From Serendipita indica DSM 11827 (Eukaryota > Basidiomycota > Agaricomycetes > Sebacinales > Serendipitaceae), in the NCBI GenBank assembly GCA_910890315.1, contig CAJVGD010000011.1, positions 310,001-374,000 on the forward strand: 64,000 bases of DNA, read 5' to 3'. Under the pieces are notes generated by a model. The model saw nothing but the letters and a program-made list of their open reading frames with translations. It was not told the origin of the DNA and searched no databases. Made by a program: the position numbers and the translations under genes. Position 1 is the first letter of the stretch; each line of letters opens with the position of its first letter. This document shows positions 39,311 through 50,374 of the stretch, in pieces.

Positions 39311-40837
39311 TTATTGGTTGCTCGTGCAATCCTCGAGGATGTCGTAGCCAATCTCCAAATAACGCAATGGAATGCCAGCTGACTTCCTCGCCTCTGCAAA
39401 CTCGCGGGCGCGATGTGTGAGTGCAGAGCGGCTGACTCTACGTAATCCGGAGAAAGTGATGACGAGAGATTCGAGGGTTCTCGAAATGGCAATACCGGAA
39501 TGGATACGTTTCTGCTCTACCTTTAGAACCTTGAAGAGCTCGACAGAGTGTACAATCCCATGCAATCTGAGTTTAACACAGCGCGTGAGAGTTGCCAGAG
39601 CCTTCGCAAGCAGCTTTTGGTCAACACGCATGTTTCTGAGATGTAGCACGCATGGATTGAAGCGCTCTTCTCTGGGCCTATTGACCCAAAGCCGCGAGAG
39701 TAGATTGTCGTTATCCTCGAAACAGACTGAATTCCATGGACCTGAAATTTTCAGATCTTCCAAGTTCGGAACCTTGAATACAGGAAGGTGTATATCTGCA
39801 CTCGATCCGGTGTAATCGAATATCCTCAGTCTTGGGAGTACGATATCGGTGTGGATGATGGAATCCGAACGTCCGGTGTATTCGAGGGAGAGCTTCATGA
39901 TATTGGGGCAGTCGATCGGCCAGAATGGAGTGCATGACCTAAGAACCAGATACCAGAGCTGGGGCATTAGAATTGGATTGGCCTGCGGATTTAGCTCGCA
40001 GTCTTGCAGTGTAAGATCGCTCACGCGCTCACACAGGATAAGGATTCGACCTAAGACTGTACCGTCTACCTTGCTTATATGAAGCTTGCGCAGGCGGCCC
40101 CAGAGAGGCAGGGATTGAAATGGCTTCAGCTGACTTCCTCTGATGCGAAGTATGGCGAGCTTCCGAGATTCTAAGATGGCTCGTTTGAGTAAACGATCAT
40201 CTTCCGTCTCAATCTCCTCCAGACCGGTCAAGTCCCAAGAGTCGAAGAGCGCTGAGGCCAACTGATGAATGTTGGTTACTCGTAGGGACCGGGCTCGGGG
40301 AGATGGGAAATGTTCTCTGACCGAGTTGAAGAGTGCAGTCACATGGGATTCATAAGACCCAAAAATGGCATCGAAGCTGATGCTGAGCGGCAACCCCTCG
40401 CTACGCGTGAATGCACGAAGTAGCTGTTTTTCCGTTCCACATCGAGCTACTCCATCTGAACTCAGGTAGTGATATCCCATTTGAACCTCGATAGTACTCC
40501 ATATCTCTCCGGCGAGCTTCGCTGCTCTGTGCCACCTTCTACAAACGAGCATGGCTGCTTGGAGAGAGCCATAGTTGCCGCATATATGATATACTAGGAT
40601 CATAGAAATGATCTCCAAGGGTAGACGTTTCGCAGGAGAGGTTGACTCCATCAACGACTGCTTTATTATGTCGGACAGAGCATCGAGAGCTACTAGCTGC
40701 TTCTGAAGCTGTTCTCGTTTGACTCCGAAAGCTTTAAAGGTTGCTCTCAGCCTTTCGGGCGTGTAAGTCTGGTGAATTTGGCGAATCCGGGCAAGTCTTT
40801 CTTGACTTGTCTTGGGCACAAGCCGTGTATAATCCAT
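39311..40837 (-). CDS. F-box/LRR protein
   Basis: Single exon, 508 aa. N-terminal helix (RLARIRQIHQTYTPERLRAT) and coiled coil (about 35-70), then the F-box core at 68-115 (AKRLPLEIISMILVYHICG, VCRRWHRAAKLAGEIWSTI). LRR-like segments: LRKLHISKVDG, VSDLTLQDCEL, LWYLVLRSCTPFWPIDCPN. The CTPFWPIDCPN block ties it closely to the pseudogenes at 41294-42838 and 49015-50374. C-terminal LTRCVKLRLHGIV and RKSAGIPLRYLEI. Intact, and the best living relative of that subfamily in the window. Confidence 0.83.
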   Translation of the reverse strand: MDYTRLVPKTSQERLARIRQIHQTYTPERLRATFKAFGVKREQLQKQLVALDALSDIIKQSLMESTSPAKRLPLEIISMILVYHICGNYGSLQAAMLVCRRWHRAAKLAGEIWSTIEVQMGYHYLSSDGVARCGTEKQLLRAFTRSEGLPLSISFDAIFGSYESHVTALFNSVREHFPSPRARSLRVTNIHQLASALFDSWDLTGLEEIETEDDRLLKRAILESRKLAILRIRGSQLKPFQSLPLWGRLRKLHISKVDGTVLGRILILCERVSDLTLQDCELNPQANPILMPQLWYLVLRSCTPFWPIDCPNIMKLSLEYTGRSDSIIHTDIVLPRLRIFDYTGSSADIHLPVFKVPNLEDLKISGPWNSVCFEDNDNLLSRLWVNRPREERFNPCVLHLRNMRVDQKLLAKALATLTRCVKLRLHGIVHSVELFKVLKVEQKRIHSGIAISRTLESLVITFSGLRRVSRSALTHRAREFAEARKSAGIPLRYLEIGYDILEDCTSNQ

Positions 40838-41293: not shown

Positions 41294-42838
41294 TTAGTTA
41301 TCTCCGATGACCTTGGAGTTGACAACCAGGCTAAGGAAGGGCATTCCAGCTGCCTGTCTGGACCTGACAAATCGTCGTGCAGTGTCCAGAACGGTATCAC
41401 TGCATCCCTGAGTACATGTAATGTCCAGCGATATGAGAGACTCCAGAGGAGTCTCTTGCTCTCCAGTGAAAGTCCTCACTTCATGAGCAGGGCTGAACAC
41501 CTCGAAGAGCTCGTCCCTCTGCACGACGTGGAATAGATCAAGCTTAATGCAACGGGTCAGCGTGGAGAGGGCTCCGACGAGGGCTTTGACATTGACTTGA
41601 AGCAAAATTATTTCAAAAGAGATGGGATCGAGACGCTGTTCTGCGGGTTTATTGATCCATGTACGCAACAGAAGATCCTCGCCATCATGATCAGAGGGGG
41701 CGTAAATGGTCAATTTCTCCAAATTTGGAGCTTGAAATATGTCAGGTTGAGGTTTCACTCCGTCAACAGTGTACGTGAGCTTGTTCAGCCTGGGCAGGAT
41801 GACACTTTTGAGAGATGGTTGCGAGCATGTTTGCATAATTGAAAGTTCGACGAAGTTGGGGCAATCTATGGGCCAAAATGGGTTGCACCATTCTAGAGAC
41901 AGCAATTGGAGCTGAGGCAAGGAGATCCTGACCACGTCCTCGTCCACGCGGCACCATCGCAAGTGGAGATATTGCAAGGGTGTACAGAGGGGGAGGATTT
42001 CCGAGAGAGCCGAGTCGGAGCTTCCCTCAGTTCGAAGACTGCGTAGCCGTCTCCATATCTCTGGATCTTGGACCTCGTGAAGCATAGATCCGGCCAAGCC
42101 AAGCGCGACGATCCGGCTGGATTCGACGACTGCTCGTCTAATCAAGTCGTTATTCCTTGTTTCAATCTCCTCGAGGAGATTCAAATCCCAGGATGCCGAC
42201 AGTGTTGTATACCATGAGCTGAGAGTGTCCGGCGAGTCTAGCCACAACGCTCATGCGCGAGGTGTTTCGACGGTCTCTTCAATCACCTTGATGAGACTTT
42301 GGACGTGGAACTGTGATGTACCTTTATCTGTAATGCTCAGAGGCAAACCTCTACTGCGCTTGAGTGCGGCCAATAGTTGTGGCTTGGTCCCACATTTCAG
42401 CACACCGTAACATAGTCTGTCATGTGTTGCTCCTGTTGTGAGGTGGATGTAGCTCCAGACCTCTCCAGTAAGAATCGCTGCTGTGTGCCAAGCTTTGCAG
42501 ACGAGCATGGTCGCTAATAAAGGGCCATCGCTGGCGCAAATGTGATGGAAGATAACGATGGAAATGGCTTCCAACTCGTCTCTTTGACCCTCGTCTCCCT
42601 GGCGCCGATCCTTGCCAAGGATCGTCTGTCCCGGTAGTTGAATGACGAGATGGTCGAGCTCGATGTCACGCTTTCCCGAGGACGGGAACGGGAACGTGAG
42701 CGCGACAAACGTGGACGCGGGCACAAGAAGCGCTTTAGCGTCGAGTGGTGGAGGCGCAGTTTGAGCATGTCCCGGAGTAAAGAGGCAGAGGAGAACGTCG
42801 AATTGTTGAGCGTGTCGCCTGCGTGATGACACTGCCAT
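41294..42838 (-). pseudogene. F-box gene with one in-frame stop (copy A)
   Basis: Two stretches in the same frame, 42838-42254 and 42250-41294, are separated by a TGA at 42253-42251. Neither a shift nor an intron is needed: ETPRA, stop, ALWLDSPDTL continues smoothly. In copy B (49015-50374) the same place reads TPRARAL, so the stop replaced an Arg codon. The F-box core is KAWHTAAILTGEVW. The LRR part includes WCNPFWPIDCPN and LTRCIKLDLFHVV, with C-terminal RQAAGMPFLSL. The start region (from Met 42838) is unusual and lacks the RLPLE box, so the 5' end may be altered. If the sequence is right it yields a truncated product. Confidence 0.75.
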
Positions 42839-43113: not shown

Positions 43114-46100
43114 ATGTCGACCCAAAAGCCAGCCAAGGCTAAGAAATCGCACAAGAGTGCGAATACGTCTCAGTCTTCGTCTGTCGCGGAGGGTTCGTCC
43201 AGCAAGAAGCAGCAAGTGTACGACACTGTCAACGTCGGCCTCGATGTAATGGCGAATGTAGCTGAAGGGTCGGATATTCTTGCGCCTCTCAAGGCAGCTT
43301 GTAAAACTACAAAGTCTATCCTCGATGTCATGCAGGCACGTTGGCGAATTGTGGTATAGGCGGCGAGTCTAACGAGTCCGATAGGCAATAGATAGCAACC
43401 AAGAGGATTGGAAGGATCTAACGCAACGCCTGGGAGAGTATAAGACTGCACTCGAGGAACAAACCGCCTTGATCGGCAAATACCCCATAGCGGACAAGGA
43501 CGTCTACGAGGCGCTCAACCAGCCGCTTGCCCGATATATGGAGTACGTGAACAACTTAGGGATCAATCTTAACAGGCTGAGCAATGCAGGCTTCTGAAAG
43601 GGATGCAAACCATGGTCGTCAATTTACAGGAGAAACGCAAGCAAAGCAAACTCGGTGTATTCAAAGCGTTCAGCAAAGTTAAGGTCGATGCGGGAGAGAT
43701 TCGTCGATTCAATCGGGATATCGAGGACCGACATAGGCAGTTGATGGTGCGACGAACACACTCTTATTCATCAGTTGACCATAGGTACAGAGTGCATTGA
43801 CTCTTTTTATTGCGTTACTGGTTCAAGCCAACGGTAAGCTCTAGTCTTACATGGAACACCTGCTTAAAATTCTCAAGCCGACTCCACTGCGATACTTCAG
43901 CTACCGACTGTAGACTTCGTAGCGTCCTCAGTTCATAGTCGCTGTTTGGAGGGAACACGCGAGGCTGTTCTCAAGATGATCTGGGACTGGGCCAATGGCG
44001 ATGCATCGGACAAGCCGATATTCTGGCTCTGCGATATCGCTGGCTCCGGCAAGTCCACAGTCGCAATGTCCGCATTGGAGACATGGCAGAGGGAAGGAAC
44101 GCTAGGTGGCCGATTCTTCTTCTCCATGGCAAGTAACGAGGCCTCCACGACCGACAAATTCTGTCCCACCATTGCAAGAAATCTCGCCCACTACATTCCC
44201 CAGCTCGGGCCCCACATTGCTGATGCCATCAAACGCAATCCCTCTTTCATGCAAAGCTCTCTTGGAGAGCAGTTTCAAACCCTCGTCACTACTCCTATCC
44301 TTCGTCGGCAACAGCGTGTGATCCTCGTCATCGACGCTGTCGACGAGTGTAAATCTGGAACACAGCGTAAACAGCTGCTCGACGCCCTTTGTGTGGCCGT
44401 TCAAGAGTGCAAGAACCTCAAGATATTCATGACAAGTAGACCAGATCCTGTCATCCAGTCGACCCTTGAGACCGTCTCGATCAAGGCCAAAGTGGAGAAC
44501 CGCCTTCACGATGTCAACCACCCAGATAACGTTGATGACATCGCTGCCTATATACATCGATCGCTCGATGGGATTCTATCTCCTGACAAGAGGCAGCAAC
44601 TAGTCGAAAAGGCCCAAGGACTGTTCATCTGGGCGAGCACTGCTTGCCGGATGCTGAACAGTGAAGCCACATGGGACACGCCAGAGAACGTCTATGATCG
44701 ATTGATCTCAGTGGACAAGGCGGGAGACATAGACGACGTATATGGTCTCATCTTCGAGCGGATAGACCCAAAGGCTCAAGAGTCGATGTGTAAAATGCTG
44801 GCCCTACTGCTGGCAGCGTTCGAGCCGCTCACAGTCGACGAGGTGCAGGACATCCTGACGCATGTCAAAGTACGCGGGAGCGTCAAGATGTTGGTGCAGA
44901 ATCTAGGAAGCGTACTGAGCGTGGATGAAAGGACGCAGCTAATCCAATTTCGCCACCCCACGCTTGTTGAGTACCTTCAACGGTGCTCCATGACTCCATC
45001 TACCAGCAAATTCTCCATTAAACTCGCAGAGGCTCATGGACAAGCTGCGTCCTGGTGTCTCAACCGCCTCACATCACGGACCGATGGGCTCAAGTTCAAC
45101 ATATGTCAAATCGAATCATCTTTCTTCCTCAATAAGCAGATTCCGAATCTTGCCGACAGAATATCCAAGTTTATCCCACGGCAACTTCAATACGCAAGCT
45201 CGCATTGGTGTTTCCACATCATGAAAAGTGACGATAGCTGGCGACGCACAGTCAAGAAAGAACTTGAACAATTGACGGAAGCATCCTACGCGCTATATTG
45301 GATGGAGGTGCTGAGTTTTACGAGGGGACTACCACGAGCAATAAACGGCCTTCGAGCAATTGTACGTCACATGGGAGTATGTAATCTTTTGAAATGGGCT
45401 CCAGACACTCACACAGTAATAGCTTGAAGAGGAGACAAGAAAGAGGATGACCGAGATCCGGCGGTTTATGATGGCATATTCCGTGCCGATCCAAGAGAGT
45501 GCTCCACACATCTACATTTCTGCGCTTCCGTTCAGTCCGAAAGAGTCAAAACTGCACACTGACGGCTTGATAAAGTACAGGAGGACGCTTAAAGTGATGG
45601 AGGGACTTGAGGCAATGTATTCCAGACTTCCGAGAGCTCTTCGAGGCCATCAAGATGCGGTGATGGCCGTCGGATTCTCGCCAGACGGCTCACGAATCGT
45701 CTCTGGCTCTTCCGACAGGACTATTCGACTGTGGGAGGCAGACACCGGCCAGCCATTGGGAGAGGCGCTCCGAGGTCATGAATATCCTGTGATGGCCATC
45801 GGATTCTCGCCAGACGGCTCACGAATCGTCTCTGGCTCTTCCGACAGGACTATTCGACTGTGGGAGGCAGACACTGGCCAGCCATTGGGAGAGCCACTCC
45901 GAGGTCATGAGGAAGGATCAATGCCGTCGGATTCTCGCCAGACGGCTCACGAATCGTCTCTGGCTCGGCCGACAGGACTATTCGACTGTGGGAGGCAGAC
46001 ACTGGCCAGCCATTGGGAGAGCCACTCCAAGGTCATGAGGGAGAGATCAATGCCGTCGGATTCTCGCCAGACGGCTCACGAATCGTCTCTGGCTCTTCCG

Positions 46101-47911
46101 ACAGGACTATTCGACTGTGGGAGGCAGACACTGGCCAGCCATTGGGAGAGCCACTCCGAGGTCATGAAGGAATTATCTGCGCCGTCGGATTCTCGCCAGA
46201 CGGCTCACGAATCGTCTCTGGCTCTTCCGACGGGACTATTCGCCTGTGGGAGGCAGACACTGGCCAGCCATTGGGAGAGCCACTCCGAGGTCATAAGCAT
46301 TGGGTGAGGGCCGTCGGATTCTCGCCAGACGGCTCACGAATCGTCTCTGGTTCTTCCGACAGGACTATTCGACTGTGGGAGGCAGACACTGGCCAGCCAT
46401 TGGGAGAGCCACTCCGGGGTCATGAGGATTGGGTGAGGGCCGTCGGATTCTCGCCAGACGGCTCACGAATCGTCTCTGGCTCTTCGACAGGACTATTCGA
46501 CTGTGGGAGGCAGACACTGGCCAGCCATTGGGAGAGCCACTCCAAGGTCATGAAGGAATTATCTGGGCCATCGGATTCTCGCCAGACGGCTCACGAATCG
46601 TCTCTGGCTCTTCCGACGGGACTATTCGACTGTGGGAGGCAGACACTGGCCAGCCATTGGGAGAGCCACTCCGAGGTCATGAATATCCTGTGAGGGCCGT
46701 CGGATTCTCGCCAGACGGCTCACGAATCGTCTCTGGCTCGGACGACAGGACTATTCGACTGTGGGAGGCAGACACTGGCCAGCCATTGGGAGAGCCACTC
46801 CGAGGTCATGAAGGAATTATCTGCGCCGTCGGATTCTCGCTAGACGGCTCACGAATTGTTTCTGGCTCTGACGACAGGACTATTCGACTGTGGGAGGCAG
46901 ACACCGGCCAGCCATTGGGAGAGCCACTCCAAGGTCATGAGGGAGAGATCAATGCCGTCGGATTCTCGCCAGACGGCTCACGAATCGTCTCTGGCTCTTC
47001 CGACGGAACTATTCGACTGTGGGAGGCAGACACCGGCCAGCCATTGGGAGAGCCACTCCGAGGTCATGAGGGAGGGATCAATGCCGTCGGATTCTCGCCA
47101 GACGGCTCACGAATCGTCTCTGGCTCGGACGACAGGACTATTCGACTGTGGGAGGCAGACACTGGCCAGCCATTGGGAGAGCCACTCCGGGGTCATGAGG
47201 ATTGGGTGAGGGCCGTCGGATTCTCGCCAGACGGCTCACGAATCGTCTCTGGCTCGGACGACAGGACTATTCGACTGTGGGAGGCAGACACTGGCCAGCC
47301 ATTGGGAGAACCACTCCGAGGTCATGAAGGAATTATCTGGGCCATCGGATTCTCGCCAGACGACTCGCGAATCGTCTCTGGCTCTTCCGACGGGACTATT
47401 CGACTGTGGGAGGCAGACACTGGCCAGCCATTGGGAGAGGCACTCCAAGGTCATGAAGGTCCAGTGATGGCCGTCGGATTCTCCCCAGATAGCTTACAAA
47501 TCGTTTCTGGCTCAGAAGATGGGACAGTTCGATTATGGAATACAGATACTGGTCAGTTGTAGTTTCAAACTATCGCCGATTGAGACAGCAATCTGACCAC
47601 TAAGCGTAGCTGTAAGCGCCCACATTTCTGACTCCAGAGACGTACGCTCCAGTCTCGCAGACGAGGAACAGGGTACTCCTCTGAGAATCGTCGTCCCTGG
47701 GTTCAATCAATGCTCAATGATGCAGGATGGCTGGGTGAAATCTGCCGGTCGTTTTCTCTTCTGGGTGCCATCAGACAACCGAAATGGACTATTATATCCT
47801 CATATTCTAACGATACCAACGACGAGTCGATATCGCCCGACCAGAATTGACTTTACCCACTTTCAATGTGGACCGTCTTGGACAAACGTTCGAGCAGGGA
47901 CCAACAACTGA
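43114..47911 (+). CDS. NACHT-WD40 NLR-like protein (two one-base breaks in the repeat region)
   Basis: Exons: 43114-43335, 43385-43542, 43590-43746, 43785-43833, 43914-45376, 45423-47551 and 47610-47911. The N-terminus is helical (about 190 aa), of unrecognised type. The NACHT NTPase domain starts near residue 235: P-loop DIAGSGKST, Walker B-like [11 protein letters not shown], sensor FMTSRPDP, then a winged-helix part. The C-terminus has 15 WD40 repeats of 43 aa and a family tail ([32 protein letters not shown]). Intron 1 uses a GC donor. The exon sum is two bases short; relative to the repeat consensus one base is missing near 45908 and one near 46484. Fungal proteins with this layout act in heterokaryon incompatibility and other non-self responses, as Podospora HET-E/D/R do; that role is inferred here. 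Confidence 0.9.
45650..47551 (+). repeat. Tandem 129-bp WD40-coding repeats, 15 units
   Basis: Each unit encodes [12 protein letters not shown], a variable pair, [17 protein letters not shown] and GH followed by a short variable patch. Units 1-14 are nearly identical at DNA level; unit 15 is diverged ([19 protein letters not shown]). This pattern suggests recent unit exchange or conversion. Confidence 0.95.
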
Positions 47912-49014: not shown

Positions 49015-50374
49015 TCATTGGCCATCCTCGATGACCTCACCGTTGACAATCACACTGCGAAGCGGCATTCCAGCCGCCTTCCTGAACCTGACAAACTGTC
49101 GTGCATTTTTTATAATGGTATGATCGCGTCCCTGCATGCATGTAATGTAGAGGCATATGAGAGTCTCCAGAGGAACCTGTGGCTCCCCAGTGGATATCTT
49201 GACCTCAGGAGGAAAGTCGAGTGCTTCGAAGAAGTCCAACTTCTGGTAGCCCACGGAAATTCTGAGCTTAGTGCAACGAGTCAGCGTGGAGACGGCTCGG
49301 ACGAGGAGTTCTGAATCGATATTGGTGCGCAGCGAGATTATTTCCAAAGAGATAGTGTCGAGACACTGGTCTGCGGGTTTATTGATCCATGTATACGAGA
49401 GAAGGTCCTCGTAGTCATCATTTAAAAAGGAGTGACCTTGAATGATCAGCTGCTCCAAATTTGGAGCTTGGAATACGTCAAGTTGAGAGATTATTTCCTC
49501 AACGCCGTATGAGAGCCTCCTCAGCCTGGCCAAGTTGACGTTTGTGAGGGACGGTTGCCAAATATTGTGAATAATCGAGAGCTCAATGAGAGCTGGGCAG
49601 TCTATGGGCCAGAATGGAGTACACCTGCTCAGATTTAGCCATCGGAGCTTAGGCATGAAGATCATAGGGGCTTCCTCGTCCAGGTGACACGATCTCAAGT
49701 GGAGATCCTGCAGGTTTGTACAGAGTGGAGGGTTTTTGAGAGGCTCGAGTCGAGGCTTTTCCAGCTATGAAGGGTGCATAGCCGTCTCCACAACTTTGGG
49801 TCTTTCACCTCTCGAACCATAGGTCCGACAAGCCAAAAACAACGATCCGGCTGGATTCAACGACTGCTCGTCTGATCAAGTCGCTATTCCTTGTTTCAAT
49901 CTCCTCGAGGAGACTCGAATCCCAGGATGCCGATAGTGTTGTATACCATGAGCTGATAGTGTACGGCGAGTCTAGCTACAACGCCCGTGCGCGAGGTGTT
50001 TTGACGGTCTCTTCAATCACCCTAATGAGACTTTGGACGTGGTACTGTGTTGTACCTTTATCTGTAATGCTCAGAGGCAAACCTCTGCTGTGCTTGAGTG
50101 CTGCCAACAGTCGTTGCTTGTTCCCCCATTCTAATACTCCACGGTGGAGTCTATCGTGCTTTAATCCTGCTGAGAGACAGATATGGCTCCATAGCTCTCC
50201 GGTGAGCCTTGCGGCTGTGTCCCAAGCCTTGCAGACGAGCATGGTCGCCAGAAGGGAGCCATCGTTGACGCAAACATGATGTAGAATGATGATGGAAATA
50301 ATCTCCAAAGGTAGCCGTCGGACAGGAAAGGAAAACCCACATGATGGACCATCGGGCTGCGACGTAGGATCCAT
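49015..50374 (-). pseudogene. F-box gene, decayed (copy B)
   Basis: Close paralog of copy A (41294-42838). The 5' part 50374-49979 is open (FPVRRLPLEIISIIILHH, VCKAWDTAARLTGELW) and ends at a TAG where copy A has the Trp of ALWLDSP. The middle (about 49960-49700) still aligns at DNA level but has several indels. The 3' part 49698-49015 is open again (RCTPFWPIDCPALIEL, LTRCTKLRISVG, RKAAGMPLRSVIV). Several breaks make it a pseudogene. Its flanks align with those of copy A, and a 300-bp direct repeat brackets it. Confidence 0.8.

Follow-up and report, generated by a model that had tools for sequence, protein, structure and literature searches.

A gene on the forward strand of the 64,000-nucleotide stretch of DNA analysed here (hereinafter designated the window; positions 310001-374000 of contig C11 in a 24.7-Mb, 55-contig assembly of Serendipita indica DSM 11827) probably encodes a NACHT-WD40 receptor of HET-E-like build, in which near-identical WD40 repeats differ mainly within two short patches and in which the frame breaks sited in these patches are most likely consensus errors of the assembly. 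The gene joins a NACHT exon to an array of 15 WD40 units, a few columns of the unit carry nearly all amino-acid variation, non-synonymous differences exceed synonymous ones at these columns, and the same pattern recurs across other arrays of the genome.

The NACHT exon scores 51.6 bits against PF05729 (cut-off 26.7), as a NACHT-type STAND NTPase does, and 97.3 bits against PF24883 (cut-off 24.8), and contains no stop codon. The change of reading frame between this exon and the WD exon is an intron rather than a break, because the paralogue PIIN_07712 (P0009) is continuous across it and the stop codon between the two frames is intronic. The stretch 45423-45908 is 63% identical to residues 636-797 of P0009, and the C-terminal tail, probably an additional exon, is 62.5% identical to residues 767-854 of PIIN_10258 (P0017). 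Units 8-15 score 334.8 bits against PF00400, giving the protein a C-terminal set of superstructure-forming repeats. An initial annotation, made from the sequence alone, had called the product NLR-like, and the finding by Pfam of a NACHT domain upstream of the WD40 repeats and linked to them via the intron bears this out. F-box-like genes adjoin the receptor gene on either side, with PF12937 above its cut-off in 2 of the 4 ORFs scanned.

Features of the receptor gene and its neighbours (window coordinates)
Feature	Position	Strand	Basis
F-box-like gene with LRR-like stretches	39311-40837	-	
F-box-like gene with LRR-like stretches	41294-42838	-	
N-terminal region, several exons	43114..43746	+	tblastn with PIIN_10440 (P0008)
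NACHT NTPase exon	43868..45376 (start approximate; ORF given as 43946-45427)	+	Pfam
Intron, 46 nt, GT...AG, NACHT exon to WD exon	45377..45422	+	paralogue P0009 (PIIN_07712) continuous across
Linker 5' of repeats, conserved in paralogue	45423..45641	+	similarity to P0009
WD40 array, 15 units	45642..47559	+	last unit closes at stop
Unit 3, 128 bp, one-base loss in first patch (columns 4-10)	45900..46027	+	
Unit 7, 128 bp, one-base loss in second patch (columns 23-26)	46415..46542	+	
C-terminal tail, conserved, probably additional exon	47630..47893	+	similarity to P0017 (PIIN_10258)
F-box-like gene with LRR-like stretches	49015-50374	-	

The N-terminal region was characterized through its homologues. 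PIIN_10440, which covers this part of the gene, scores 20.3 bits against PF17111, below the cut-off of 27.2, and the HET family is absent among its 7 Pfam matches at E 0.01; PF17111 is found at E 0.01 in 2 of 17 homologues. The fold predicted by a weak model of the paralogue P0091 (mean pLDDT 62) is mostly helical, and its structural matches are generic helical bundles. PIIN_10440, which comes from an older assembly of the same strain, is also the highest-identity match of the NACHT query (99% over 62% of the query) and differs from window positions 43114-44869 by three amino-acid substitutions in the aligned stretches. According to PMC3192844, DSM 11827 is most likely heterokaryotic, its two nuclei being unlike and its SNP density 2.6 per kb; the PIIN_10440 version may represent the second nucleus's allele.

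Tandem-repeat detection places the array at 45660-47513, with a period of 129 bp, 14.4 copies and 90% matches. Unit starts, counted from 45642, are spaced by 129 bp save for units 3 and 7 (128 bp each) and the last unit. The two short units spread the 15 units over three reading frames, and the window's ORF list holds no ORF that spans the array; in its assembled form the array has no single continuous frame. The fifteen near-identical WD40 repeats of the initial annotation are thus present as 15 tandem units with a PF00400 match, but the two 128-bp units and the loss of frame had been overlooked. Mean DNA identity is 0.90 over 11 units. Protein identity is about 87% (column differences total about 5.6 of 43 residues), which, with broken units excluded, places the array among repeats of high internal conservation, defined as over 85% identity over at least 100 aa (PMC4986451).

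Differences between units are confined to a few columns rather than spread evenly. In a first count over the 11 of 15 units that are intact and followed by 129-bp spacing, ten columns account for 96% of non-synonymous differences. The columns that had been singled out from the sequence, namely those after GH, before AVGFS and before DxTIRLW, are the right ones, with minor variation in the window's array also at columns 1 (R/Q), 4, 7, 10, 14, 16 and 42. Within the patches, column 25 is an invariant D in the 11 units here and in 101 units of other arrays, and column 7 is limited to V or I.

For counts of substitutions we used the five columns (5, 6, 8, 24 and 26) that are most variable on average across 21 further arrays of high identity, since choosing them there avoids choosing on the tested data. 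The same five columns rank as the top five for variability in the window's array, and the chance of an identical set is 1e-6 by simple counting. Over ten units of the window's array, pN is 0.51 and pS 0.25 at these columns, compared with a pN of 0.03 and a pS of 0.11 at the other 38. The full set comprises 206 units of 22 arrays (broken, stop-bearing or non-xGH-starting units excluded), and in it pN exceeds pS at the five columns in 19 of the 21 other arrays and outside them in 0 of 21, although these column tests are not independent because the arrays have a common ancestry and units probably pass between them. The per-column check that had been proposed over the repeats therefore gives pN above pS at the variable columns and below it elsewhere. 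Among individual arrays, column 26 falls to 26th or 27th place for variability in 3 of 22 (L032, L039 and L041). The arrays are not a random sample: L041-L050 were picked for likeness to the window's unit, and L001-L008 are the best WD40 matches. Recombination can inflate pN/pS, and the elevated pS in the patches implies that they are also older or less homogenised than the rest of the unit.

The arrangement of the variable columns matches that of a known system. The Podospora anserina proteins HET-E, HET-D and HET-R (hereinafter designated HNWD) share with the window's gene a NACHT domain and a high-identity WD40 array (PMC1805685, PMC2873952, PMC12222747), and in HET-D/HET-E repeats the positively selected codons 7, 9, 25 and 27 flank the conserved codons 8 and 26 (PMC1805685). 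When the HET-E repeat as printed in PMC12222747 was aligned by eye to the window's unit, columns 6, 8, 24 and 26 coincided with these four selected codons, at identical spacing and around the V/I of column 7 and the D of column 25. The resemblance to the hypervariable columns of HET-E/D/R suggested by the initial annotation thus extends to the codon level; selection on the window's columns is itself judged by the pN/pS counts. As described in the cited passages, HNWD proteins differ from the window's gene in having a HET domain at the N-terminus, for which the homologue PIIN_10440 has no Pfam match, in the length of the unit (42 aa, versus 43 aa in the window's gene) and in the usual number of units (11, versus 15). 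The window's gene, unlike HNWD, comes from a basidiomycete and carries a conserved C-terminal tail.

An AlphaFold2 model of units 8-15 is a closed, high-confidence ring (mean pLDDT 97.2, pTM 0.92). According to the strand list of the model (its coordinates were not used), strand a is predicted to contain column 8 and to be directly preceded by columns 4-6, and columns 24-26 to lie in the stretch that links strand b to strand c. Mapping the variable columns on a propeller model, as had been suggested, yields predicted positions in line with the published surface of the Podospora propeller. The model is closest to the eight-bladed designer protein Tako8 (TM 0.90 by query length; seven-bladed designs, 0.71-0.73) and is a weak guide to the true blade number, since folding programs tend to close whatever is given. 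The proposed division of the array into two seven-blade propellers plus one unit finds no support in this model of units 8-15, whose nearest structures are eight-bladed, and 8+7 is equally good arithmetic.

Comparison of units within and between the 22 high-identity arrays points to probable exchange of repeats. Backbone codons are 2.5% different within arrays and 13.4% between them (0.025 vs 0.134), whereas the corresponding values are 31% and 43% for patch A (0.307 vs 0.429) and 30% and 54% for patch B; backbones are therefore far more uniform per array than patches. This is what the earlier suggestion that exchange keeps the units similar would lead one to expect. We prefer these distances as a measure because nearest-neighbour counts failed to separate backbone from patches: over 29 arrays, the nearest neighbour lay in the same array at 0.29 for the backbone and 0.32 for patch A (chance 0.03), with no clear separation, and over the 22 high-identity arrays at 0.39 and 0.46, so that backbones were not closer to home. 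In the window's array, the first patch EGEI-N occurs with second patches SR and SG, and EGII-C with SG and DR, a pattern that shuffling of unit parts would be expected to produce. On contig C5, the nearest paralogues are 91% identical in NACHT and have 14 and 11 units in a different patch order. The two lie in opposite orientation with about 6 kb between them (G000:C5, 459-468 kb); one has an open array (L039) and the other a broken one (L040). L039 holds its 14 units in a single open frame, and three of them are shortened in frame, by 3, 6 and 3 bp, within the post-GH patch, indicating that patch length varies besides sequence.

In the established model of fungal NLRs, a propeller face binds the partner, NACHT oligomerises and the N-terminus acts (PMC4986451). 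Applied to the window's gene, repeat exchange within the array would keep the backbone uniform, and substitutions would be retained, presumably by selection, at residues that lie on one propeller face in the published Podospora model. By analogy, these residues most likely determine the binding partner of the sensor; binding of the partner would release NACHT for oligomerisation, and the oligomerised receptor may then trigger a cell-death or defence response via its N-terminus.

Frame breaks such as those of units 3 and 7 are found in arrays across the genome. We examined 44 arrays, many sampled in part, comprising 30 with a unit identity of at least 0.80 (364 units) and 14 below it (140 units); L003, L005 and L008 were left out as overlaps, and longer pieces were used in place of L009-L011 and L028. 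The count excludes spurious second anchor matches, a false 11-base loss in L045, where two spacings sum to one unit, and a stray match in L038. Breaks are present in 17 of the 30 high-identity arrays, of which more units were sampled, vs 1 of the 14 divergent ones (Fisher p 0.0025); a first, smaller array set had given 7 of 15 vs 1 of 15 (p 0.035). Of the 43 breaks in the high-identity arrays, 39 are sited in the two patches (columns 4-10 and 23-26), which make up 11 of the 43 columns (p 3e-19 by a binomial test that, like those below, assumes independent breaks, which these may not be), and 41 of the 43 breaks are losses. Patch columns contain 33% of homopolymer runs (p 3e-15 against the share of breaks) and 76% of nucleotide differences (vs 91% of breaks, p 0.014), both shares being taken from the 206 intact 129-bp units rather than from all 30 arrays.

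Homopolymer miscalls were rejected as a general cause of the breaks because columns 27-43, which have few breaks, contain most runs of at least 3 bases (434 of 689). The older assembly was considered as an arbiter and is uninformative on the array, since the PIIN_10440 protein stops in the NACHT region. A second WD40 array family, with 126-bp (42-aa) units, is represented by L001, L002, L004, L006 and L007 (contigs C27, C10, C35, C4 and C7). All five of these sampled arrays carry frame breaks; they sit near contig ends, at distances of about 1 to 6 kb, and so are either subtelomeric or at places where the contigs broke. A telomere pattern search of contig ends returned 0 matches.

The two one-base losses in the window's array are most likely consensus errors of the assembly. 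We judge errors that arise where copies or nuclei differ to be the likeliest cause because the strain is a published heterokaryon, and bases could drop out at the patches when a consensus is built from copies with unlike patch sequences. If the losses are such errors, one or both nuclei probably carry an undamaged copy of the gene. In Podospora, a het-d repeat that seemed to lack one base was shown to have been misassembled from long-read data (PMC12222747). Two observations count against this explanation: the published misassembly lay in a homopolymer, whereas the breaks counted here do not follow homopolymers, and the breaks are slightly more concentrated than the nucleotide differences.

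That the losses are real in the DNA and the gene a true pseudogene, its repeat pattern kept by exchange with intact paralogues, appears unlikely. Such a history has been proposed for the Podospora NWDp pseudogenes, which retain largely intact WD repeats (PMC1805685), and would account for the two breaks of the assembled array, but the NACHT exon is stop-free, the linker and C-terminal tail are conserved, and breaks cluster in high-identity arrays and in patches. We give still less credence to a real mutation hotspot, in which, for example, error-prone repair of mismatched repeat exchange would generate both substitutions and minor changes of length in the patches, of which selection would keep those that preserve the frame. 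The confinement of 39 breaks to 11 columns, their independence of homopolymers, their somewhat greater concentration than that of nucleotide differences and the in-frame losses in the open array L039 all suit a hotspot; on the other hand, consensus errors are also expected in the patch columns, where three quarters of nucleotide differences lie, nearly all changes (41 of 43) are losses, and the spontaneous WD-domain mutations in sequenced Podospora alleles are all frame-preserving in the published account (PMC2873952). An ordinary WD40 scaffold with recently amplified repeats, its variable columns reflecting relaxed constraint on surface loops, would explain why most of the variable columns lie in loops of the model, where weak constraint is expected, but is equally improbable given the excess of pN over pS at these columns in the window's array and 19 of 21 others, the fixed D of column 25 and the restriction of column 7 to V or I.

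Whatever the status of its frame, the window's gene is one example of an already described family of NACHT-WD40 receptors. The 2011 genome paper of this species reported 99 NACHT-WD ORFs and already proposed possible non-self recognition for them (PMC3192844); these NACHT-WD (NWD) genes, described from Piriformospora/Serendipita indica DSM 11827, have the same domains as the window's gene. A later count gave 274 NLRs for the species and found high-identity repeats to be frequent in fungal NLRs (PMC4986451). Among 317 candidates, we scored at least 87 NACHT copies in the genome, the window's gene included. The published descriptions of S. indica NWD genes, in the passages and matches listed, contain neither hypervariable columns nor patch-confined length changes, and hypervariable WD40 columns in Serendipita appear in none of the titles or abstract openings of the matches listed.

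The sensor rule of Podospora, with its four codons and the spacing they have there, recurs in a family of basidiomycete receptors that numbers at least 87 NACHT copies in one genome, and in a strain that carries two unlike nuclei. The reading frames of such arrays are not to be trusted without accurate phased reads. A mutation hotspot, if real, would mean that a process tied to repeat exchange confines substitutions and small insertions or losses almost entirely to the sensor columns throughout the receptor family, and that mutation, and not selection alone, directs where diversity arises. Should the arrays prove intact and unlike between the nuclei, S. indica could be used to study the mutual tolerance of two nuclei whose receptors have diverged.
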